From positions 1-64,000 of the forward strand of contig VGHK01000001.1 of the NCBI GenBank assembly GCA_016868305.1: 64,000 nucleotides of DNA, given 5' to 3'. The notes under the pieces were generated by a model. It saw only the letters and a list, made by a program, of their open reading frames with translations. It was not told where the DNA came from and searched no databases. The translations under genes and the position numbers were made by a program. Positions within the stretch are counted from its first letter, which is position 1, and every line of letters begins with the position of its first letter. Positions 12,918 through 25,099 of the stretch are shown in pieces. Source of the stretch: Betaproteobacteria bacterium (GTDB lineage Bacteria > Pseudomonadota > Gammaproteobacteria > Burkholderiales > Burkholderiaceae_A).

Positions 12918-14576
12918 ATGAATAGCCACCCCCGCGTTGAGTACCAGACCGATCCCACGCAGTACAAGCACCTGAAACTAAGCTTTAACGGCGTCGTAGC
13001 CACCCTGGCCGTAGATATTGATGAGAACGCAGGGCTGCGCCCCGGCTACAAGCTCAAGCTCAACAGCTACGACCTCGGCGTGGATATTGAGCTCAATGAC
13101 GCCTTAAACCGCATTCGCTTTGAGCACCCCGAAGTGCGCTCGGTGGTGGTGACCAGCCTGAAGGATCGTATCTTCTGCTCGGGCGCCAACATTTTTATGC
13201 TGGGACTCTCCAGCCATGCCTGGAAGGTTAACTTCTGTAAGTTCACCAACGAGACCCGCAATGGCATTGAAGACTCGTCTAAGTACAGTGGCCTGAAGTT
13301 CATCGCTGCGGTCAACGGTGCCTGTGCGGGCGGCGGCTACGAGCTCGCCCTTGCCTGCGATGAGATTGTCTTGATTGATGACCGGTCGTCTTCGGTAAGC
13401 CTGCCTGAGGTTCCCTTGCTTGGCGTGCTGCCCGGCACCGGTGGGCTTACCCGGGTTACCGACAAGCGTCATGTACGTCACGACCTTGCCGACATCTTCT
13501 GTACCACCACTGAGGGCGTGCGTGGCCAGAAGGCCAAAGACTGGCGGCTCGTGGATGAGGTGGTCAAGCCTGCCCAGTTTGCAGAGTATGTGCAAAAACG
13601 CGCAGAGCAGCTTGCAGAGCAGAGCGATCGCCCGGTAGGTGCTAAAGGCATTGCCCTGCCACCGGTTGTCCGTGAGCTCTCTGCAGACGCCATGCGTTAC
13701 GATCATGTGAAGATTAAGATCGACCGGGCATTGCGCACCGCCACCATTACGGTGCATGGCCCCGATGCGGTCCTGCCTCAGACCACCGAGGCCATTGAGG
13801 CAGCCGGTGCCGCCTGGTATCCCTTGGCCCTGGCCCGTGAGCTAGATGACGCCATTCTGCAGCTGCGCACCAACGAGCTCGACCTGGGCACCTGGATTAT
13901 CAAAACCGCTGGAGATGCCCAGGCTGTGTTGCAGATGGACGCGCTGCTGCAGGCGCATCAGAGCCACTGGCTGGTACGCGAAACCTTGGGCCTCATGCGC
14001 CGTGTCTTTAGCCGCCTCGATGTCTCCTCGCGCAGCCTGTTTGCCCTCATCGAGCCGGGCTCCTGTTTTGTTGGCAGCTTTCTGGAATTTGCCCTGGCCT
14101 GCGATCGCAGCTATATGCTGGCGCTGCCCGATGATGCACAGAAGGCCCCGAAGATCGCGGTCTCTGAGATGAACTTCGGCACCTTTCCGATGGTGACGGG
14201 CCAGAGCCGCATTGGCCGTAGGTTCTACGATGAGGCCCCCGCTGTTGCCGCGGTGCAGGCAGCCAAGGGTCAGATGCTTGATGCCGACGCCGCATTTGCC
14301 TTGGGCCTGGTTACCAGTAACCCAGATGACATCGACTGGGCCGATGAGGTGCGCATTGCGATTGAAGAGCGTGCTGCCATGTCGCCCGATGCCCTTACGG
14401 GTATGGAGGCTAACCTGCGCTTCAATGGCAAAGAGACTATGTTTAGCCGAATCTTTGGACGTCTGACTGCCTGGCAGAACTGGATATTCCAAAGACCCAA
14501 TGCAGTAGGTGAGAAGGGCGCTTTAAAGGTCTATGGCAAAGGCGAGAAGGCGGCCTTTGACTGGAACCGCGTCTAG
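12918..14576 (+). CDS. boxC: Benzoyl-CoA-dihydrodiol lyase (2,3-epoxybenzoyl-CoA dihydrolase)
   Basis: A 552-residue enzyme of the crotonase superfamily that hydrolytically opens 2,3-epoxybenzoyl-CoA to 3,4-dehydroadipyl-CoA semialdehyde and formate. The N-terminal crotonase half shows the CoA oxyanion-hole segments FCSGANIFMLG and NGACAGGGYELALACDE. The glutamate-bearing segment LPEVPLLGVLPGTGG follows. A second, divergent half extends to the C-terminus as in known BoxC proteins. AAGGAG lies before the ATG. It is the first gene of boxC-boxB-boxA and appears intact. Its product has no visible downstream enzyme here because the BoxD-like gene is truncated. Confidence 0.95.
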   Translation: MNSHPRVEYQTDPTQYKHLKLSFNGVVATLAVDIDENAGLRPGYKLKLNSYDLGVDIELNDALNRIRFEHPEVRSVVVTSLKDRIFCSGANIFMLGLSSHAWKVNFCKFTNETRNGIEDSSKYSGLKFIAAVNGACAGGGYELALACDEIVLIDDRSSSVSLPEVPLLGVLPGTGGLTRVTDKRHVRHDLADIFCTTTEGVRGQKAKDWRLVDEVVKPAQFAEYVQKRAEQLAEQSDRPVGAKGIALPPVVRELSADAMRYDHVKIKIDRALRTATITVHGPDAVLPQTTEAIEAAGAAWYPLALARELDDAILQLRTNELDLGTWIIKTAGDAQAVLQMDALLQAHQSHWLVRETLGLMRRVFSRLDVSSRSLFALIEPGSCFVGSFLEFALACDRSYMLALPDDAQKAPKIAVSEMNFGTFPMVTGQSRIGRRFYDEAPAVAAVQAAKGQMLDADAAFALGLVTSNPDDIDWADEVRIAIEERAAMSPDALTGMEANLRFNGKETMFSRIFGRLTAWQNWIFQRPNAVGEKGALKVYGKGEKAAFDWNRV

Positions 14577-14658
14577 CCCACCTCCCGAGCGAAAACACCA
14601 AGATTCAATTCACTTACTTCATTTTTTTTCCACGAACCGCATTTCTAAGGAGCAGACC

Positions 14659-16086
14659 ATGAACGGTATTAACTACAGCGAGAAGATCCCCAATAACGTC
14701 AACCTCAGCGAAGACCGCACCCTGCAACGGGCGCTCGAGCAGTGGCAGCCCAACTACATTCAGTGGTGGAATGACATGGGCCCGGAGGGCAGCCAGAACT
14801 TTGATGTCTATCTGCGCACTGCAGTCAGCGTAGACCCTCAGGGCTGGGCGCAGTTTGGCCACGTGAAGATGCCCGACTACCGCTGGGGCATTTTTCTAAA
14901 TCCCGCTGAGGCCGGTCGCAAGATTCATTTCGGCGATCACATGGGCGAGAATGTCTGGCAAGACGTGCCGGGTGAGCACCGGGCCAACCTGCGCCGTATC
15001 ATCGTTACCCAGGGCGATACCGAACCCGCCTCGGTGGAGCAGCAGCGTCACCTGGGTCTTACCTGCCCCAGCCAGTACGACCTGCGCAACCTTTTTCAGG
15101 TCAACGTAGAAGAGGGCCGCCACCTCTGGGCCATGGTCTATCTGTTGCACAAGCACTTTGGCCGTGATGGCCGTGAAGAAGCAGAGGCACTGCTTGAGCG
15201 CCGCAGCGGCGAGCAGGACAACCCCCGCATTCTGGGTGCATTTAACGAGAAGACGCCGGACTGGCTCTCGTTCTACATGTTCACCTATTTCACCGACCGC
15301 GATGGCAAGTTCCAGCTCTGCGCCTTGGCAGAGTCGAGCTTCGACCCGCTTGCCCGCACCACCAAGTTTATGCTCACCGAAGAGGCCCACCATATGTTTG
15401 TGGGTGAGTCGGGCGTGTCACGCGTGATTCAGCGTACCTGCGACATGATGAACCAGTTGAAGACCGACGATGTCTCTAAGTTGCGGGCTGCAGGTGTCAT
15501 CGACCTGCCCACCATTCAGCGGTATCTCAACTTTCACTTCTCGGTCACCATCGACCTCTTTGGTGCCGATGAGTCAAGTAATGCCGCCACCTTCTTCAGC
15601 TCTGGCCTTAAAGGGCGGTATGAAGAAGGCAAGCGCATCGATGACCATATTCTGAAGAACGACACCTACAAGGTGCTGCAGGTGGTCAATGGCCAGCTCA
15701 TCGAGAAAGATGTTCCGATGCTCAACGCACTAAACGAGGTCTTGCGTGATGACTACATCAAAGACTCGGTGGGTGGTGTTGATCGCTGGAACAAGGTTAT
15801 TGAGAAGGCAGGTATTGATTTCCGGCTTAAGGTGCCGCACAAGGCCTTTAACCGGAAGATTGGTGCCCTCTCGGGCGTTAAGGTGTCACCCGATGGCCGC
15901 GTGGTCTCCGACCGCGAGTGGAACATGTATGCAGACCAGTGGCTTGCTACCGAAGAAGACCGTGCCTATGTCGCATCACTGATGGGCCGCGTCGTAGAGC
16001 CGGGCAAGTTTGCGAGCTGGATTGCGCCGCCGGTCATGGGTATTAATCGGCAGCCGGTGAACTTTGAATACATTCGGTTTAACTAG
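14659..16086 (+). CDS. boxB: Benzoyl-CoA 2,3-epoxidase, diiron subunit
   Basis: A 475-residue oxygenase component that epoxidises benzoyl-CoA with O2 and electrons from BoxA. Diiron-ligand motifs are visible: E122, E152-x2-H155 (in NVEEGRHLW), D213 (FTDRDG) and E242-x2-H245 (TEEAHHMF). They correspond with a two-residue shift to those described for the Azoarcus evansii enzyme. A longer upstream open frame exists, but AAGGAG sits seven bases before the ATG at 14659 and that start gives the family length. It lies 82 bases after boxC in the same operon. Confidence 0.96.
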
Positions 16087-16145
16087 GCCGTTTTATACTC
16101 GGCGCCAAGAGACCCCAGACAACGATTAGGGCAGAGGAGACAGCC

Positions 16146-17447
16146 ATGGGTATAGACGATAGCAAGGTGCTCAAGCAGCACCTGATAGACCCCGAAATCT
16201 GCATTCGGTGTAACACCTGCGAGGCTACCTGCCCCGTAGGTGCTATCAGTCATGACTCGCGTAACTATGTGGTCGATGCAGAGAAATGCAACTTCTGTAT
16301 GGCATGCGTGCCGCCATGCCCTACTGGGTCGATCGACAACTGGCGTGTGGTACCGAAGGTAAAGGCCTATAGCCTTGAGGCGCAGCTGGGCTGGGATGAA
16401 CTTCCTGCCGAGCTCTCGGCAGAAAGCCTTGCAAGTCTGGGCGTTGGTCTTGAAGATGCCGCTGCCTCTTTGGCATCTTTGGCGGGCGATGCGGGCGCAG
16501 CAACGGGGGATTCGATTCAGGGTGAAACCAATGCTCTGCCGGCAGCGGCCGGTGTTTCTGCCGCGATGCCGCCCTGGTCTGCGGCCCACCCGTATACCAA
16601 CCTGTATGGGCCAAAGGCCGCACAAAAGACGGTCAAGGCCACGGTTACCGGCAACTTCAGGGTGACCGAGGTTGGCAAAGACTACGACACCCACCATATT
16701 GTCCTGGACTTCGGCCAGGCGTTTTTTCCGGTGCTCGAGGGGCAGTCGTTGGGCATTGTGCCGCCCGGGGTGGATTCACACGGTCGGGCGCACCATCCGC
16801 GGCAGTACTCGATTGCCAGCCCCCGCAATGGCGAACGTCCCGGGTATAACAATGTGTCGCTTACGGTAAAGCGGGTGCTCCAGGACTGGAACGGAAACCC
16901 CATGCGCGGCATCGGCAGCAACTATCTGTGTGATCTGCAGGTGGGGGATTCGGTGGATGTCATTGGCCCCTTTGGCTCCAGCTTCCTGATGCCCAATCAT
17001 CCGAAGTCCAATATCGTGATGATCTGCACGGGTACTGGAAGCGCGCCCATGCGGGCGATGACCGAGTGGCGCCGGCGTGACCGCAAAACTAGCGCAGCCG
17101 AGCAGGGTAAGCTCATGTTGTTCTTTGGTGCCCGTACCAAGGAGGAGCTGCCTTATTTCGGCCCGCTGATGAACCTTCCCAAAGACTTTATTGATATCAA
17201 TCTGGTCTTTTCGCGCGAATCCGGTAAGCCCAAGCGGTATGTGCAGGATGCTTTGCGCGAGCGGGCGGCAGACTTGGAAGGCCTTTTGGCCGACCGCAAT
17301 ACCTACATTTATGTCTGCGGCCTGAAGGCAATGGAGGAAGGGGTGGTTCTCGCCCTGCGTGATGTTGCATCACAGACGGGCGGCGACTGGGCCGCTATGC
17401 ATCAGGCCATGCGGTCAGAGGGTAGAATCCACTTCGAAACCTACTAG
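16146..17447 (+). CDS. boxA: Benzoyl-CoA 2,3-epoxidase reductase subunit
   Basis: A 433-residue NADPH-dependent flavoprotein that passes electrons to BoxB. The N-terminus carries two [4Fe-4S] motifs: C19-C22-C25-C29 ([12 protein letters not shown]) and C48-C51-C54-C58 ([12 protein letters not shown]). An alanine-rich linker of about 60 residues follows, then a ferredoxin-NADP reductase module with RQYSIASP for FAD binding and [12 protein letters not shown] for nucleotide binding. GAGGAG lies before the ATG. It is the last gene of boxCBA and is followed by a strong terminator. Confidence 0.96.
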
Positions 17448-18206: not shown

Positions 18207-18533
18207 TCAGCCCAAAAATTCCGGTGGGCGTTTTTGTACCCAGCCGATAAATTTGGCAACCTCTGGGTGGGTACGTAATGACTCCCAGCTATTGTACTGT
18301 CGGGCAAGTTCGCGGGGTTTGAGCGCCTGGTGAATCTTCAGGTGACAGACTTTATGTAGCCTAAACTTTTCTCTGCCCCCCTGTGACCGCGGAGTAAGGT
18401 GGTGTTCATCCACCGTGGGCCCGAGCACCATCAGCCTGTCGCACAAAGGGCAGCGCAGGTCTTCTTCGGGCAGAATCTCTGCGCCGGAGGCATCTTGGCC
18501 TTCTTTCCATCGGAGGGAACGTTTTGCAACCAT
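18207..18533 (-). CDS. Small HNH endonuclease-like protein
   Basis: A 108-residue protein with a zinc-ribbon HNH core: CPLC (C28, C31), DEHHLTPRSQGGRE (H44, H45), and KVCHLKIHQ (C63, H64, H68). The C-terminal segment (ELARQYNSWESLRTHPEVAKFIGWV) is typical of a widespread group of free-standing bacterial HNH proteins whose role is not established. The central asparagine usual in HNH motifs is not obvious. It is divergent from pnuC, with only 22 bases between the starts. No restriction-modification partner is present. Confidence 0.8.
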   Translation of the reverse strand: MVAKRSLRWKEGQDASGAEILPEEDLRCPLCDRLMVLGPTVDEHHLTPRSQGGREKFRLHKVCHLKIHQALKPRELARQYNSWESLRTHPEVAKFIGWVQKRPPEFLG

Positions 18534-18555: not shown

Positions 18556-19125
18556 GTGAACTTGCTGGAATGGCTTGCAGCCGGTCTGGGGCTTTCAGGC
18601 GTTTTGTTGGGTATTGCCCAAAAGAGCGCCGTATGGCCGCTATGGATTGCCTCGAGTGCGATCTATGTCTTTATTTATGGGCAGCTTGCCCTTTGGGGCC
18701 AGGTAGGCCTCATGCTGGTCTTCATCGGTCTTTCGTTGTGGGGGCTTGTGCAGTGGCGCAGCCAGACCACCCAGGCGCAGGCGCAGCCGGGCTGGCTGGG
18801 GCTGCCGCATTGGCGCACCTTATTACTGTTGGTCGCTGCCGCCTGGCTGCTTATGGGGGTTTTTCTCGGCCAGACCGAAAACCCGCATGCCTGGCTCGAT
18901 GCCTGGGTAACCACCGCAAGCCTCTTTGCTATGGGGCTCATGGCAAAGAGGCGTCTGGACTGCTGGCTTTTCTGGGGCGTTGCCAATGCCTCGGCAGTGG
19001 TCTTGTTCGTGCAGCAGGAACTCTGGGCAACCACTGTCCTGTATGCCGTGCAACTGTTTCTTTCCTGGCTGGGCTTTCAACGCTGGCGTGCGTCTGTATG
19101 GAACCCTGATGCCAACGGCTCCTGA
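18556..19125 (+). CDS. PnuC-family vitamin transporter, probably thiamine (PnuT-like)
   Basis: A 189-residue membrane protein with about seven hydrophobic segments and PnuC-type features: LLGIAQKSAVWPLWIASSAIY near the N-terminus and WFWG-type segments (CWLFWGVANASA) later. PnuC proteins let nicotinamide riboside, thiamine (PnuT) or riboflavin equilibrate across the inner membrane, with cytoplasmic phosphorylation trapping the substrate. The next gene encodes a NadR-like kinase and overlaps by 17 bases. A TPP riboswitch and a TonB receptor follow, which points to thiamine, but the kinase type also allows nicotinamide riboside. The start is GTG without a clear ribosome site. Confidence 0.82.
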   Translation: MNLLEWLAAGLGLSGVLLGIAQKSAVWPLWIASSAIYVFIYGQLALWGQVGLMLVFIGLSLWGLVQWRSQTTQAQAQPGWLGLPHWRTLLLLVAAAWLLMGVFLGQTENPHAWLDAWVTTASLFAMGLMAKRRLDCWLFWGVANASAVVLFVQQELWATTVLYAVQLFLSWLGFQRWRASVWNPDANGS

Positions 19126-19690
19126 TCCAGAGCCTGTCGTCCGCCCCGCCGTGTGCAGGGTTGCTGTCATTGGGGCGGAGTCGACTGGCAAGACGCGGCT
19201 CTGTAACGCCCTGGCACAGAGTCTTGATGGCGCGTCTTTCGAGGAACCCTTACGGCTGTGGGTCGCGCAGTATGGCCGCAGCCCCCAGGCAGACGAGCAG
19301 CGGGAAATACTGCAGCAGCAGAAGCAGGCCGAAGACCAGGCCCTCATGGCTGCCCTTCGTGCAGGCAAGCGATGGGTGTTCTGCGACTCTGCGCCTCTTG
19401 TTACCGCGGTCTATAGCCAGTTTTATTTTCAAGACCATTCGCTTGTGTCAGAGGCGGTCGCACACCATAGGCAGGCCTACGCGCACACACTGCTCTGCAG
19501 TAACGACCTGGGCTGGCAGCAAGACCCCGGAATGCGCGATGGCCCCCAGGCGCAGGCCCATGTGCAAAAACGCCTGATGCAGGTTCTCAGCGACCATGCA
19601 CTGCCCTACTTTTCAGTCAATGGCCAGGGGGAAATCCGGGCTCAGCTTGCAGTCCAGTTCCTTGCCGGGGTAGACTTCGAGCAACGCTAG
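19109..19690 (+). CDS. NadR-like ribosylnicotinamide-kinase-type ATPase
   Basis: A 193-residue P-loop protein with Walker A GAESTGKT (about residues 22-29) and a likely Walker B in WVFCDSAPLVTAVY. It resembles the C-terminal kinase domain of NadR. The NMN adenylyltransferase and DNA-binding domains of full NadR are absent. NadR kinases phosphorylate nicotinamide riboside delivered by PnuC, so the pnuC-nadR overlap fits substrate trapping. The adjacent TPP riboswitch raises the alternative that it phosphorylates thiamine or a thiamine precursor. The last bases of the gene form one strand of the riboswitch P1 stem. Confidence 0.78.
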   Translation: MPTAPDPEPVVRPAVCRVAVIGAESTGKTRLCNALAQSLDGASFEEPLRLWVAQYGRSPQADEQREILQQQKQAEDQALMAALRAGKRWVFCDSAPLVTAVYSQFYFQDHSLVSEAVAHHRQAYAHTLLCSNDLGWQQDPGMRDGPQAQAHVQKRLMQVLSDHALPYFSVNGQGEIRAQLAVQFLAGVDFEQR

Positions 19691-19799
19691 GGGTCCCGAC
19701 ACGTCAGGCCGGTTTTCTGGGTCTGATCTCTTGCAGCAAAAGAGCGGGTGAGACAAACCCTTTGAACCTGATCGAGTTAAGACTTGCGCAGGGAAGCGT
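19684..19799 (+). promoter_or_regulatory. TPP (thiamine pyrophosphate) riboswitch
   Basis: The conserved THI-element core is present: AGGGG after P1, TGAGA, ACCCTTTGAACCTGATC, and CAGGGAAGC closing the structure. P1 can form between ACGCT (19684-19688) and AGCGT (19795-19799). The aptamer therefore begins seven bases before the end of the upstream kinase gene and uses its stop codon region. It lies 95 bases before the TonB receptor start, which it should switch off when TPP is abundant. Confidence 0.92.
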
Positions 19800-19863
19800 C
19801 GAGAAGCCTTCCGTGCGGGGTATTTAAAGCCCAGCGGTTTTCACGGTAAAAAGTCTGCTCGCT

Positions 19864-19888
19864 GCCTCTCTGCTTTTTTAAAAGAGGC
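19864..19888 (+). promoter_or_regulatory. Hairpin occluding the TonB-receptor ribosome site
   Basis: GCCTCT (19864-19869) can pair with AGAGGC (19883-19888). The right arm contains the AGAGG ribosome-binding site of the receptor gene, which starts at 19895. The T run is in the loop, not after the stem, so this looks like a translational expression platform for the TPP riboswitch rather than a terminator. This is inferred from base pairing only. Confidence 0.55.
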
Positions 19889-19894
19889 CTCCCC

Positions 19895-22087
19895 ATGACA
19901 CCTGTTTCAAATCCCCGCAATACTGCAGTTTCTGCGCTTGCCTTAGCGGTACTCGCCAGTCTGGTACCGGGTGCTGCACATGCCCAGGCGGCTTCTGTTC
20001 TACCAGCCGTGGTGGTTACCGAAGCCCCAGAGTCTTCGCTTGCCCCGCGCGGTGTGTCACTGCCTGTGGCTGCAGACCAGATTCCCTGGCTGATGCAGAG
20101 TCTGTCGTCTTCGGTGATCACGCAGGAGCAGATCACACAGACGGGGGGCGGCCGTCTCACCGAGGCGCTGCGGTTTGATACCTCGGTGGATCCGAACTAC
20201 AGCCCTCTGGGCTACTACGAGAGTTTTCAGATACGGGGCTTTGCCGTGGATCCTGTGTTCGGCTTTCGGGTAAACGGTGTACCCGTAGTGGGTGAGGCAC
20301 CGATTTTTATGGGTAATAAGCGGCAGGTCGAGGTCTTGCGCGGCGCTGCCGGGGCTGGGACTGCCCCCGGCGCTGGGGGCGGGCTTGTGCATCTGGTTAC
20401 CAAACGTCCTGAGTCGATTCGCAGCCTGGAGACGGGGATACAGACGCGATCTTCTGCTGGGCTGGCCGCAGACATTGGTACCTTAGATGGTCAGGGCAAT
20501 GGCTGGCGGCTGAACCTGGCGGGAGACCGCCTCTGGCCCTATGCGAAGGGCGCCGATGGCGAGGCGGGCGCCCTGGCTTTGGCCTTTGATCAACGGCTTT
20601 CAGGGGGGGGCCGACTGGCCTTTGATGCGGAACTTGCGCGTCGCGAACAGATAACCCAGCCTGGTAGCCAGCTGCTTGGCGGCACCGCCCTACCCCCCCT
20701 GCGGCCAAAGACGGTGTTGGGTCTCTCAGGCTGGTCTGAGCCCGTGCGGTTTGACTCGGCCTTTGCCATGGCCCAGTGGGAGATGCCTCTGCAGAACGAC
20801 TGGATGGCCTCGGCACGCCTATCGGCCCATCAGGTAAAGACCGATGACTACAGCAGCTTTCCATGGGGAGTTCCCGGTGATGATTTTTTGGGAATCGCAA
20901 CTGACTCCTACTTCTCCCCGACCGCCGGCTTCGGATTTTATGATTATCGATCTATCAATGAGCAACGCAACACGCACGCCGTCAGTTTTGACCTGTTAGG
21001 CAGAGTTACATTGGGGTCAACTGCACATGCTATTCACGTTGGCGGAGAAGTTATTGAGCATCTATCGACAAAACCCGATTACCTTTATGCGTATGTAGGA
21101 GAGGGCAATGCAAATGCTTTGTCCTGGTCTGGGAGCCCAAGCGGTGAAGCTGGCAGAGATGTATTCCGTCGCGAGCTTCGCCAGTCTAGCCTTTACCTTA
21201 CGGATCGGGTGGCGTTGGGTATTGGGGCGCTCTCTCTGGGTCTGCGTTGGGTTCACATGAAGGATGGCTATCGGTCGAATTTCGATCCCGCGTTTTACAA
21301 CCCGATTGATTGGAGCAGTCGCTCAGACCACTGGCTCTTGCCCGCGATCACCTACAGCCTTCCCCTGCAGGGGCAGCAGCAGATCTGGGCCTCATATCGT
21401 CAAGACATAGAGGCTGGTGCCGTGGCGCCCCTGTCGTCTGCCAACAACGGCGCGGTGCTGCCTGCCCGTCGGCTGTACCTGCTTGAACTCGGTACCAAGG
21501 CCCTTTTTCGCCCGCAGCTAGAGGCCTCAGCCGTGGTTTTTCATAGCTGGCGGCCGCATAACTTTCGCAACGATGACCCGCTCGATCCGCTGGGGAACCC
21601 CGCAGGCCGTTACGAGCAGCGAGGCCGGGAATCGCGCACGGGCCTTGAACTCTCGGCGGCGGGCCGAATTGCGCCCGGTCTGCAGGCGCAAGTGTCTGCA
21701 AGCTATCTAGCGTCTGATACCTCGGGCCTTGATAATGCCGCCTTTGAGGGAAAGCAGGCCCTGAACACGCCAAGGCTTCGGCTGTCTGCGCTCCTGGACT
21801 ATCGACTGCCCCAGGTGTCAGGTCTTTCGGTCTGGGCGGGCGGCTTTTATGTCGGTCGGCGCCCCGCCAGTCGCGATAGCTCGGTTTTTGTGCCCGGCTA
21901 CACGCGGTTTGATCTGGGCCTGAACCTTGTGCACAAGGCGGCAGGGCAGCGTCAGACCTACCGGTTCAGTGTTGAAAATATTTTTAACAAATCATACTGG
22001 CGCGATGCCGCGGAATTTCTCGGCGATGCCTACCTTACGCCAGGTGCGCCGCGAATATTTAAGTTCAGCGCAACCACAAGCTTCTAA
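19895..22087 (+). CDS. TonB-dependent outer-membrane receptor, probably for thiamine or a precursor
   Basis: A 730-residue outer-membrane protein. A signal peptide ends near AAHAQA and is followed by a TonB-box-like PAVVVTEA. A plug domain spans about residues 50-170 (QTGGGRLTEALRFDTSVDPNYSPLGYYESFQIRGF is its middle), including VEVLRGAAG and the glycine-rich GAGGGLVHLVTKRP. A 22-strand beta-barrel ends in the aromatic FKFSATTSF. The best substrate evidence is the TPP riboswitch directly upstream; energy-dependent thiamine uptake through such receptors is known in other Gram-negatives. Bases of about 20,880-21,190 are markedly richer in A+T than the rest of the gene, suggesting exchange of a surface-loop segment. 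Confidence 0.88.
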   Translation: MTPVSNPRNTAVSALALAVLASLVPGAAHAQAASVLPAVVVTEAPESSLAPRGVSLPVAADQIPWLMQSLSSSVITQEQITQTGGGRLTEALRFDTSVDPNYSPLGYYESFQIRGFAVDPVFGFRVNGVPVVGEAPIFMGNKRQVEVLRGAAGAGTAPGAGGGLVHLVTKRPESIRSLETGIQTRSSAGLAADIGTLDGQGNGWRLNLAGDRLWPYAKGADGEAGALALAFDQRLSGGGRLAFDAELARREQITQPGSQLLGGTALPPLRPKTVLGLSGWSEPVRFDSAFAMAQWEMPLQNDWMASARLSAHQVKTDDYSSFPWGVPGDDFLGIATDSYFSPTAGFGFYDYRSINEQRNTHAVSFDLLGRVTLGSTAHAIHVGGEVIEHLSTKPDYLYAYVGEGNANALSWSGSPSGEAGRDVFRRELRQSSLYLTDRVALGIGALSLGLRWVHMKDGYRSNFDPAFYNPIDWSSRSDHWLLPAITYSLPLQGQQQIWASYRQDIEAGAVAPLSSANNGAVLPARRLYLLELGTKALFRPQLEASAVVFHSWRPHNFRNDDPLDPLGNPAGRYEQRGRESRTGLELSAAGRIAPGLQAQVSASYLASDTSGLDNAAFEGKQALNTPRLRLSALLDYRLPQVSGLSVWAGGFYVGRRPASRDSSVFVPGYTRFDLGLNLVHKAAGQRQTYRFSVENIFNKSYWRDAAEFLGDAYLTPGAPRIFKFSATTSF

Positions 22088-22127: not shown

Positions 22128-22607
22128 GTGAAAACACATGTGCCCGAACACGCCGTTCGGGTCTTAAAGCAGTTTAGGGTTATTTTTAGGGCGGTAAAAG
22201 AGCACTACCGCATGGTGGAACTGGCTACCGGGCTGTCTGGGTCCCATGTCTGGGCCCTGGTGATCATCGAAGAAAATCCAGGCATTCGGCCTGGCGCGCT
22301 CACCGATCGGCTGGCCATTCATCAGTCCACCGCAAGCAATATCGTGCGGCATCTGGTTTCTGAGGGCTATGTGCTTAGGGCCCGTTGCCCTGATGATGCC
22401 CGAGCCTTCGAACTCAGTGCAACGCCTAAGGCGCGCGAGCTACTGGCCAAGGTGCCGGAGCCCAAGATTGGCATTCTGGTGCAGGCCCTGGCAGATATGC
22501 CACAGGGTTCGGTAGCAGGCCTCGAAGGCTATCTGGATCATCTTATTGCCCGAATGGGCCAGTCGGGCGATGCTGAGGCCGGTCTTAAGCCCCTGGCCGA
22601 TCTCTAA
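22128..22607 (+). CDS. MarR-type winged-helix regulator
   Basis: A 159-residue transcriptional regulator. The winged helix-turn-helix is visible as IRPGALTDRLAIHQSTASNIV with the wing LRARCPDDARAFEL, flanked by helices typical of MarR dimers. The start is GTG at 22128 behind GGGAGG. It follows the TonB receptor by 40 bases on the same strand and may be co-transcribed with it. MarR proteins usually sense small aromatic ligands, but no ligand can be inferred. A bidirectional terminator follows. Confidence 0.85.
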   Translation: MKTHVPEHAVRVLKQFRVIFRAVKEHYRMVELATGLSGSHVWALVIIEENPGIRPGALTDRLAIHQSTASNIVRHLVSEGYVLRARCPDDARAFELSATPKARELLAKVPEPKIGILVQALADMPQGSVAGLEGYLDHLIARMGQSGDAEAGLKPLADL

Positions 22608-22748: not shown

Positions 22749-24833
22749 TTAGGCCATATGCAGGTCGGGGTACCGAACCGAGGAGACCAGATCTTGTACT
22801 TCCCGCTTCGGTGCCGGCGTGATCAGCGACACGATCACGATGATGGCAAAGCCTAGTGGCATACCGAAGAGACCCGCAGAGATGGGCTGAATATCCCACC
22901 AGAGGTCGGGAGTGGTGGGCACGCTACGGGGAATACCGTAGAAGACCTCACGCAGCCAGACCTGGGTTAGGGTCATGTAGTAGAACGTGATGCCGGTGCC
23001 GGCAATCATTCCCAGCGAGGCAGCGATACCCGTGGTGCGCTTCCAGAAGATTCCCAGTACTAGGGCCGGGAAGAATCCGGCTGCCGCAAGCGAGAAGGCT
23101 GCAGCCACCAAGAACAGAATGTCTGCCGGGGCCTGCTGGGCAACCAGGGCTGCCAGAATGGCCACGATCAACAGCATGGTCTTGGAGATGGTTACGCGAC
23201 GGGACACCGGTGCATTGGGGTCGATCATCTTGTAGTACATGTCGTGCGACAAGGCATTGGCAATCGTGAGCAGTAACCCGTCAGCGGTTGACAGCGCCGC
23301 AGCCAGACCACCGGCGGCCACCATACCTGACACCACATACGGCAGACCGGCAATCTCAGGCGTTGCAAGCACCACGATGTCATTGCCCAGCACGATCTCG
23401 GCCAGTTGCACGATGCCGTCTTTGTTGACGTCTGTAATGGCCAGCAGCGATGCATCCACCGCGTTCCATCGGGCGACCCATTCAGGCAGCGCCGCGAACT
23501 GCGACCCCACGATGTCGTTGTACATCACAAACTTTACGAGCACGGCCAGAGCAGGTGCCGTGAAGTAGAGCAGGAAGATGAAGAACAACGACCAGGTAAC
23601 CGAGTTACGCGCCTCACGTACTGATGGGGTGGTGTAGAACCGCATCAGAATATGGGGCAGGGCAGCGGTACCTACCATCAGGCAGAGAATGAGCGCCAGG
23701 AAGTTTTTGCGCGCAATGTCTTTTGCCTGTTCGTCTTTACCTGGGAAGGCATCGGCATGGTTACGAGGAGCGTTTGCACGGGCCGCCAGACCACGTTCAC
23801 GATTGAGCCCAGCCGTGTAGGCGGCGACGTCTGCAGGGAACTTGGTAACAGCAGCCTCTGCGGCAGCAATGGCGGCGCCATCTGCCTTCGCAGCCTTCAG
23901 CTCGGTTACCTTAGCCTCGAGTGCTGCCTTGTCAGCCGCATATGCTGCAGGCGCATCTTTGAGCTTTTCGACAGCAGCAGCAGAGCGGTCTTTGAAGATC
24001 TTACGGACTTCTTGTTCGCCCGGATCTGCATTAATCTTCTTCTCAAGCTCGGTCACCTTTACCAATTGCTGACCGTAAATGAGCTGGGGTATTGGGAAGC
24101 CGGTTTGCTTCACCGAGAGCCAGACCACCGGGATCATGTAGGCAATGATCAGGATGATGTACTGGGCCACCTGCGTCCAGGTAACGGCACGCATGCCGCC
24201 TAAGAACGAGCAGACCAGAATGCCGCCAAGGCCCAGGAACACGCCAATCTCAAAGCTCACGCCGGTAAGACGGGTGGTAATGAGACCCACCCCATAGATC
24301 TGGGCAACCACATAGACGAACGAGCAGAGAATCGCTATGAGGACCCCAATGAAACGGGGAACAGATCCACCGTAACGCGCACCCAGGAAGTCTGGAATGG
24401 TGTACTGGCCAAACTTACGTAGGAACGGCGCCAAGAAGAGTGCTACCAGCACATAGCCGCCGGTCCAGCCCATGATAAAGGCAAGTCCGCTGTATCCACC
24501 CGCATACAGGCCACCGGCCATACCAATGAACGACGCGGCAGACATCCAGTCTGCGCCAGTTGCCATTCCATTAAAGACCGCGGGCACCCGTCGACCGGCC
24601 ACATAATAGTCATCCGCTACGTTGGTACGGCTAATGATGCCGATACCTGCGTAGAGGATAACGGTGGCTGCTAGGAAGACATAACCAATGCCCACCTTGG
24701 ACAGACCCATCTGCTCGGCGATGGCCAAAAGAATGCAGAACGCAAAGAAGCCACCGGTATAGAAACCGTAGACCTTTTTGAGTTGTGCGTTAAAGGCCTT
24801 CTGCGAGCTTCCTGCATCAAGTAATCCCGCCAT
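22749..24833 (-). CDS. Sodium:solute symporter (VC_2705/ActP-like) with EF-hand-like loop
   Basis: A 694-residue SSS-family permease with 13 or so membrane segments. The conserved core is clear: GMATGADWMSAASFIGMAGGLY, LGARYGG and STADGLLLTIANALSHD. Relatives with a DUF4212 partner transport acetate or other monocarboxylates, but the substrate is not proven. There are two oddities. An Ala/Lys-rich, probably coiled insertion of about 110 residues (DNA about 23,740-24,060) sits in a loop. A canonical EF-hand calcium loop, DVNKDGIVQLAE (23397-23432), sits in another. The gene starts two bases after the DUF4212 stop. Confidence 0.9.
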   Translation of the reverse strand: MAGLLDAGSSQKAFNAQLKKVYGFYTGGFFAFCILLAIAEQMGLSKVGIGYVFLAATVILYAGIGIISRTNVADDYYVAGRRVPAVFNGMATGADWMSAASFIGMAGGLYAGGYSGLAFIMGWTGGYVLVALFLAPFLRKFGQYTIPDFLGARYGGSVPRFIGVLIAILCSFVYVVAQIYGVGLITTRLTGVSFEIGVFLGLGGILVCSFLGGMRAVTWTQVAQYIILIIAYMIPVVWLSVKQTGFPIPQLIYGQQLVKVTELEKKINADPGEQEVRKIFKDRSAAAVEKLKDAPAAYAADKAALEAKVTELKAAKADGAAIAAAEAAVTKFPADVAAYTAGLNRERGLAARANAPRNHADAFPGKDEQAKDIARKNFLALILCLMVGTAALPHILMRFYTTPSVREARNSVTWSLFFIFLLYFTAPALAVLVKFVMYNDIVGSQFAALPEWVARWNAVDASLLAITDVNKDGIVQLAEIVLGNDIVVLATPEIAGLPYVVSGMVAAGGLAAALSTADGLLLTIANALSHDMYYKMIDPNAPVSRRVTISKTMLLIVAILAALVAQQAPADILFLVAAAFSLAAAGFFPALVLGIFWKRTTGIAASLGMIAGTGITFYYMTLTQVWLREVFYGIPRSVPTTPDLWWDIQPISAGLFGMPLGFAIIVIVSLITPAPKREVQDLVSSVRYPDLHMA

Positions 24834-24835
24834 GG

Positions 24836-25099
24836 TTAATCCTCCTCAGGCTCGGCTACGCCGAACTCTTCATCGATGCGGTTCATGGAGCGGGCGTAGT
24901 ACCAAATGATCAAAACATAAATGACCAAGGCACCCTGGGCGCCCACCCAGAAAGAAAAGGGCCAGCCAAAGAAGTTAAAGCTCAGCGCCTCGGCGTAATA
25001 CCCGATTACGTAGGTGACTACGAACCAGATCGCCAGGAGCCATGCGGTCTTCTTCAGCAACGCCCGCCAGTAGGCTAGGTGTCGTTCAGTGAGTTGCAT
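24836..25099 (-). CDS. DUF4212 small subunit of the symporter
   Basis: An 87-residue protein with two membrane segments and the DUF4212 pattern: WRALLKKTAWLLAIWFVVTY, FNFFGWPFSFWVGAQG and VYVLIIWYYARSMNRID-like elements. Proteins of this type are always found directly upstream of VC_2705-like symporters and are taken to be an accessory subunit. The spacing of two bases to the symporter gene supports coupled synthesis. The C-terminus is acidic (EEFGVAEPEED). Confidence 0.9.
   Translation of the reverse strand: MQLTERHLAYWRALLKKTAWLLAIWFVVTYVIGYYAEALSFNFFGWPFSFWVGAQGALVIYVLIIWYYARSMNRIDEEFGVAEPEED

Follow-up and report, generated by a model that had tools for sequence, protein, structure and literature searches.

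Background

The PnuC-family protein PnuT of Shewanella woodyi is said, in work by Jaehme in 2018, to transport thiamine (vitamin B1) by facilitated diffusion. In Bacteroides, the passages of the source that concern these genes describe OMthi, PnuT and Tnr3 as a set linked to TPP riboswitches and often placed in one operon, and report that PnuT moves thiamine in E. coli (PMC5613172). Salvage in E. coli itself, as outlined in an extract of a further work, involves ThiBPQ, ThiK and ThiL, thiamine being converted to TMP and then to TPP (PMC12632268). For the NAD vitamers, an excerpt describes NadR as trapping the nicotinamide riboside (NR) that is taken up by PnuC (PMC7221760), and the class of the controlling riboswitch has been used, in the section concerned, to tell the substrate of a PnuC-family transporter (PMC7749635). 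SO2713 is listed in an excerpted source as a predicted thiamin transporter, pnuT (PMC5955497), and thiamine riboswitches in Shewanella are mentioned in general terms in part of another (PMC3223726). In Variovorax, one riboswitch operon contains thiC and another a permease with a TonB receptor, the passage in question making no mention of the kinase treated here (PMC10409787); putative thiamine receptors exist, for which proof is described as lacking in the extract concerned (PMC2771747).

Among the open-access matches listed, no source was recognised in which a NadR-type kinase is credited with phosphorylating thiamine, and an earlier prediction in subscription papers or RegPrecise is possible; on the vitamin needs of Rubrivivax, the matches listed held nothing on point. 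To our knowledge, the phosphorylation and trapping of thiamine is not a known task of the NadR-type kinase family.

Architecture of the locus

The following features lie within the window, i.e. the whole 64,000-nucleotide stretch of DNA that was analysed:

18556..19125, + strand: pnuC homologue, 189 aa, GTG start, TGA stop, assigned from the sequence and from Pfam and TIGRFAM models
19109..19690, + strand: P-loop kinase of the NadR-RNK type, proposed thiamine kinase, 193 aa, ATG start, TAG stop
19679..19811, + strand: TPP riboswitch aptamer, match to Rfam RF00059, with the kinase stop codon in its 5' part
19860..19897, + strand: possible expression platform, a GCCUCU/AGAGGC hairpin, from the sequence and the MFE and centroid folds
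19895..22087, + strand: TonB-dependent outer-membrane receptor, proposed thiamine receptor, 730 aa, with Plug and TIGR01783 matches
22128..22607, + strand: MarR-type regulator (Pfam MarR_2, 47.6 bits), the last gene in the same direction

The receptor, the PnuC-type facilitator, the kinase and the riboswitch are likely to constitute a thiamine salvage route that feeds ThiL. In the proposed route, the TonB-dependent receptor would carry thiamine through the outer membrane and the PnuT-type facilitator would pass it across the inner membrane, after which the NadR-type kinase would convert it to thiamine monophosphate and so trap it, the substrate being deduced from context at each of these steps. 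ThiL, encoded elsewhere, would then make TPP, and binding of TPP to the riboswitch would presumably lower the expression of the receptor, thereby closing the loop.

The route so proposed resembles the Bacteroides OMthi-PnuT-Tnr3 set, as excerpted, in combining a riboswitch-controlled receptor, a putative PnuT-type transporter and a trapping enzyme; in Bacteroides, however, that enzyme is Tnr3, a thiamine pyrophosphorylase, whereas here it would be a NadR-type kinase, with no TPK found and ThiL present (PMC5613172). With the E. coli route, in the parts of it available from the source, it shares ThiL as the second kinase and, at two loci from Rhodoferax, a thiBPQ-like transporter next to the kinase, but ThiK belongs to another family (TIGR02721) that was not found here above its cut-off (PMC12632268). 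The likeness to PnuC-NadR, on the extract concerned, lies in the pairing of a facilitator with a cytoplasmic kinase of the same fold that traps by phosphorylation; the differences are the want of NMNAT and HTH domains, E-x-L-R in place of E-Y-G-R, and the links to the TPP riboswitch and to loss of ThiC (PMC7221760). The new part is thus the kinase family in the trapping role, the rest being a known kind of system.

The 17-base overlap of pnuC and kinase claimed in the first-pass annotation proved exact (kinase start 19109, pnuC end 19125), and the riboswitch, described there as directly following the kinase, lies closer still, as the RF00059 match (59.8 bits, gathering 54.3) extends over the final 12 bases of the kinase gene, with the TAG stop codon inside the aptamer's P1/P2 strand. 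A like overlap is found in a second genome of the genus (G003), and in two others (G001 and G002) the stop codon and the riboswitch match are directly adjacent. With the start of the aptamer lying within the kinase gene, a separate promoter cannot be fitted between the two, which suggests that pnuC, kinase and receptor are probably on one transcript, or else that the receptor promoter lies within the kinase gene. The downstream hairpin covers a purine-rich stretch before the receptor ATG, and its helix appears in both the MFE and the centroid folds; because the 234-nt region from riboswitch to start codon folds no more stably than its shuffles (z 0.63), the hairpin is regarded as an inferred, candidate platform. 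The window has its riboswitch downstream of pnuC and kinase, whereas in 8/20 loci from the order-wide sample described below it stands upstream of a receptor-pnuC-kinase row on one strand; direct control of the pair is therefore suggested by the gene order of relatives rather than by that of the window.

Transporter and receptor

The pnuC product is a member of Pfam PF04973 (NMN_transporter; 119.4 bits, cut-off 27.3) and scores 58.6 bits against TIGR01528, an NR transporter by name. The window PnuC alone matched no solved structure, and a search with the aligned family gave PnuC 4qtn as the closest solved relative. Judged from its sequence and setting, the protein is probably a PnuT-type thiamine facilitator. 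The receptor matches Pfam Plug (44.7 bits) and TIGR01783 (236.4 bits, cut-off 223.5); it scores as a siderophore-type receptor, which is counted against the thiamine reading, as is the NR name of TIGR01528. Receptor homologues follow the riboswitch in relatives from the genus.

The kinase

The kinase scores 91 bits against Pfam AAA_28 (cut-off 27) and 65.5 bits against TIGR01526 (NadR; cut-off 341), the latter match being confined to positions 156-320 of 325. Because the match covers just the C-terminal region of NadR, the protein is the kinase domain alone, in agreement with the first-pass annotation; the Pfam and NCBIfam profile search yielded no NMNAT or HTH domain, and the ThiK model TIGR02721 was absent among the NCBIfam matches. 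An AlphaFold2 model (mean pLDDT 94, from an alignment of 45 sequences) is closest to NadR 8x7f (Z 21.9, rmsd 2.2, 176 residues aligned) and predicts a ribosylnicotinamide-kinase fold, the next-closest structures being thymidylate kinases with Z of about 16.

The window kinase carries the motif E-P-L-R, and the NadR proteins compared (n=4) carry E-Y/F-G-R. The leucine of E-x-L-R is present in 77/78 members of the kinase clade (13/13 TPP-linked and 64/65 others) against glycine in 4/4 NadR, the counts being made without L133 and, from the set of 80 named kinases described below, without L102, which was dropped for want of a motif match. Four further residues (R57, P59, E63 and Q64) hardly vary within the clade, which is not the case in NadR. 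From the likeness to thymidylate kinases, we take both E-x-L-R and these residues to lie on the acceptor side of the fold. In the kinase tree, from which one NadR locus (L012) was dropped for want of a motif match and named rows shorter than 170 aa were left out, the TPP-linked rows fall into two groups; branches in the tree are long, and its bootstrap was unsettled. Short NadR-like kinases of a third kind (L013, L016 and L017), bearing G-P-E-S-C-G-K, form a separate branch; pnuC adjoins the kinase in L013 and L016, and no TPP riboswitch was seen near the short kinases of these three loci.

Thiamine genes in the genome of the window and in the genus

Profile searches were carried out in the genome of the window, a 2.26-Mb draft that is 97.45% complete, and in 26 relatives (n=27). 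Neither ThiC nor ThiE was found in the genome of the window, the former being present in 17/27 genomes and the latter in 20/27 at E 0.001, so thiamine must come from outside. TPK was found in 0/27 genomes and ThiK in 0/27 above its cut-off, with weak partial matches in 11, while ThiL occurs in 27/27 (26 above the cut-off; 236.6 bits in the genome of the window). No enzyme of a known family was found for the step from thiamine to TMP, the only one left unassigned, and the kinase fits this gap. One TPP riboswitch was found in the genome of the window, namely the 19679-19811 aptamer. Among the relatives, one genome (G034, L043) has neither ThiC nor the kinase and shows a weak TPP riboswitch match of 45.9 bits.

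Kinase, pnuC, riboswitch and receptor recur jointly within the genus. The kinase is found in 8/11 genomes (G000-G006 and G010, that of G005 being a fragment at a contig end); pnuC adjoins it in 7/8 loci, and a riboswitch with a receptor homologue accompanies it in 7/8, the miss lying at a contig end in either case. Together with the riboswitch found near the kinase in 17/24 genomes of the order (see below), this recurrence makes the four-element grouping more than chance. ThiC is present in 0/8 kinase-bearing genomes vs 3/3 without the kinase (Fisher p 0.006, a test that ignores kinship). ThiE is absent in 7/8 kinase-bearing genomes; the one that keeps it (G004) has a second riboswitch nearby on that contig. 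One kinase-bearing genome (G001, locus L069) was matched to the cultured isolate LSUCC0115, the genome of which is 98.78% complete (PMC6952679).

Distribution across the order

When 300 genomes of the order were sampled, 51 were matched by the kinase profile (E 1e-10), 24 of them with more than 170 bits and 27 with 135 or fewer, the 170-bit line that defines the clade having been set after the scores were seen (gap 174 to 135 bits). ThiC, found in 262/300 genomes, is missing in 16/24 of the kinase clade vs 22/276 others (Fisher p 6e-11, kinship ignored), although shared ancestry links related genomes and genes can go missing from MAGs. Weaker NadR-like matches lack the association, ThiC being missing in 2/27 of them vs 20/249 genomes without a match (p 0.66). 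Counted by genus, ThiC is wholly missing in 5/11 kinase genera vs 4/123 others (p 1e-4), and one further genus (g61) repeats the swap, with two genomes that have the kinase without ThiC and three that have ThiC without the kinase.

Flanking DNA was retrieved for 20 of the 24 clade kinases; the remaining four belong to the genus, and their riboswitches were already known. The kinase has a TPP riboswitch nearby in 13/20 of the retrieved loci and hence in 17/24 in all, which answers positively the proposal that pnuC-nadR-like pairs co-occur with TPP riboswitches elsewhere. As the riboswitch model used (R1) has only 11 base pairs, ten matches were re-checked against Rfam, and 10/10 passed. The window's order of kinase, riboswitch and receptor recurs in two genomes of another family (G288 and G230), no pnuC being detected alongside in G230. 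No riboswitch was seen near the kinase in 7/24 genomes (G258, G229, G073, G192, G287, G253 and G282), five of which keep ThiC.

Among named bacterial genomes, 80 loci were drawn from at least 482 relatives, mostly Burkholderiales with some MAGs labelled actinobacteria; this set overlaps the order sample, L070 and L155 appearing by match positions to be the same contig. Within the stretch of DNA taken around it, the kinase is linked to a TPP riboswitch in 13 of these loci and to an upstream eno-like gene in 45, with other settings in 22; the neighbours seen beside the clade are eno/ftsB/hslO-like genes, serS, TBDT and thiB, which bears in part on the first-pass question of whether such pairs keep company with NAD-pathway rather than thiamine genes. 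No riboswitch was seen near the kinase in the eno-linked loci, which make up most of the named set (45/80), and this counts against the thiamine reading. Ten of the eno-linked kinases (L071, L074, L083, L111, L114, L117, L118, L123, L138 and L145) have no adjoining pnuC, as if the kinase there outlived the transporter. In the 50 named kinase genomes tested, TPK was found in none (0/50) and ThiC was missing in 33. Since ThiC is kept in 17/50 of these and in 8/24 kinase-clade genomes of the order sample, the kinase is not confined to auxotrophs.

Two Rhodoferax MAGs (L081 and L087) have the kinase without pnuC, near a riboswitch (about 1.3 kb from the kinase in L087) and a thiamine ABC substrate-binding protein that scores 310.9 and 287.9 bits, respectively, against TIGR01254 (cut-off 93.4) and falls short of the stricter thiB model TIGR01276. 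A permease with ThiP models as its best matches, below cut-off, and an ABC ATPase follow, and serS (L087) or a like sequence (L081) lies upstream of the kinase. Because the kinase adjoins a thiBPQ-like transporter here, it is tied to thiamine independently of pnuC. The view that the window holds a complete thiamine salvage set spanning both membranes, put forward in the first-pass annotation, gains support from this adjacency in two loci and from the linkage to loss of ThiC.

Alternative explanations

The most conventional explanation is an ordinary uptake-and-trap pair for NR, in which PnuC and a NadR kinase domain would supply NMN for conversion by PncC to NaMN and thence to NAD, the TPP-controlled receptor standing alongside by accident. 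The nearest named families of the kinase clade are NAD-salvage proteins, the solved structures nearest to the pair likewise belong to NR proteins, and PncC is present in 26/27 genomes, that of the window included, so the product of an NR kinase could also be put to use. Even with PncC present, such a kinase is the less likely reading for the window, and the explanation as a whole is improbable: the linkage to TPP riboswitches recurs, the association with ThiC loss is missing from the weaker NadR-like matches, the kinase occurs beside a thiB-type gene in loci without pnuC, and it has no NMN adenylyltransferase domain. More weight, while still well short of an even chance, can be given to a mixed family that acts on thiamine in the TPP-linked lineages, that of the window among them, and on a different nucleoside-like vitamin in those linked to eno. 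Such a split would suit the separate tree branch of the eno-linked rows, near which no riboswitch was seen, and one position of the PnuC partner, which is T or M in 9/10 TPP-linked proteins and Q in 4/4 eno-linked and 3/4 NadR-linked ones; the change from Q to T or M is put forward as a lead on a substrate difference and nothing firmer. Against it, ThiC is missing in 22/35 eno-linked genomes tested, similar to the 6/9 of the TPP-linked ones, and the kinase signature is common to both groups.

Control by TPP would equally suit the salvage of a precursor or breakdown product such as HMP or the thiazole alcohol, and G004, with its ThiE and second riboswitch, would accommodate a kinase for one of these; such a kinase is nevertheless very unlikely, as ThiE, which joins the two halves of thiamine, is absent in 7/8 kinase-bearing genomes of the genus, including that of the window, and HMP could therefore not be used there. 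Thiamine thus remains the probable substrate of the window kinase. The first-pass annotation had proposed thiamine or a precursor in place of NR: the former is well supported by comparative genomics, and the precursor half of the proposal is disfavoured for the genus. By extension, the NadR-fold clade defined by E-x-L-R and G-R-x-P-x3-E-Q, eno-linked members included, may well be the missing thiamine kinase of auxotrophic Burkholderiales and perhaps of some Actinobacteria, a non-orthologous stand-in for ThiK and TPK that would work with PnuT- or ThiBPQ-type uptake; this wider reading is held with less assurance than that of the window locus.

Implications

Phosphorylation of thiamine would, we infer, be a new activity for the NadR fold. 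If the thiamine reading is true, the NadR kinase fold acquires a new substrate, kinases that are modelled as parts of NAD salvage would be enzymes of vitamin B1 metabolism in many bacteria of fresh and coastal waters, genomes without TPK or ThiK would no longer show a gap between the uptake of thiamine and ThiL, and predictions of vitamin B1 need in plankton communities would be corrected. The reading is directly testable, as one member of the kinase clade (L069) comes from the cultured isolate LSUCC0115.

Neighbouring genes

Just upstream of the locus (window 12918-17447, + strand) lie boxC, boxB and boxA of aerobic benzoyl-CoA degradation, with matches to TIGR03222, TIGR03225 and TIGR03224 all above cut-off, followed by a gene for a MaoC-like hydratase. 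A small HNH-type, HlpB-like protein is encoded divergently to pnuC at 18207-18533 (- strand; NF058586, 49.2 bits, under the cut-off of 130), and its gene is kept at the same place in 7/8 kinase loci of the genus. Beyond the MarR-type regulator, a sodium/solute symporter of the VC_2705 family and its small subunit are encoded at 22749-25099 (- strand; TIGR03648 and TIGR03647).
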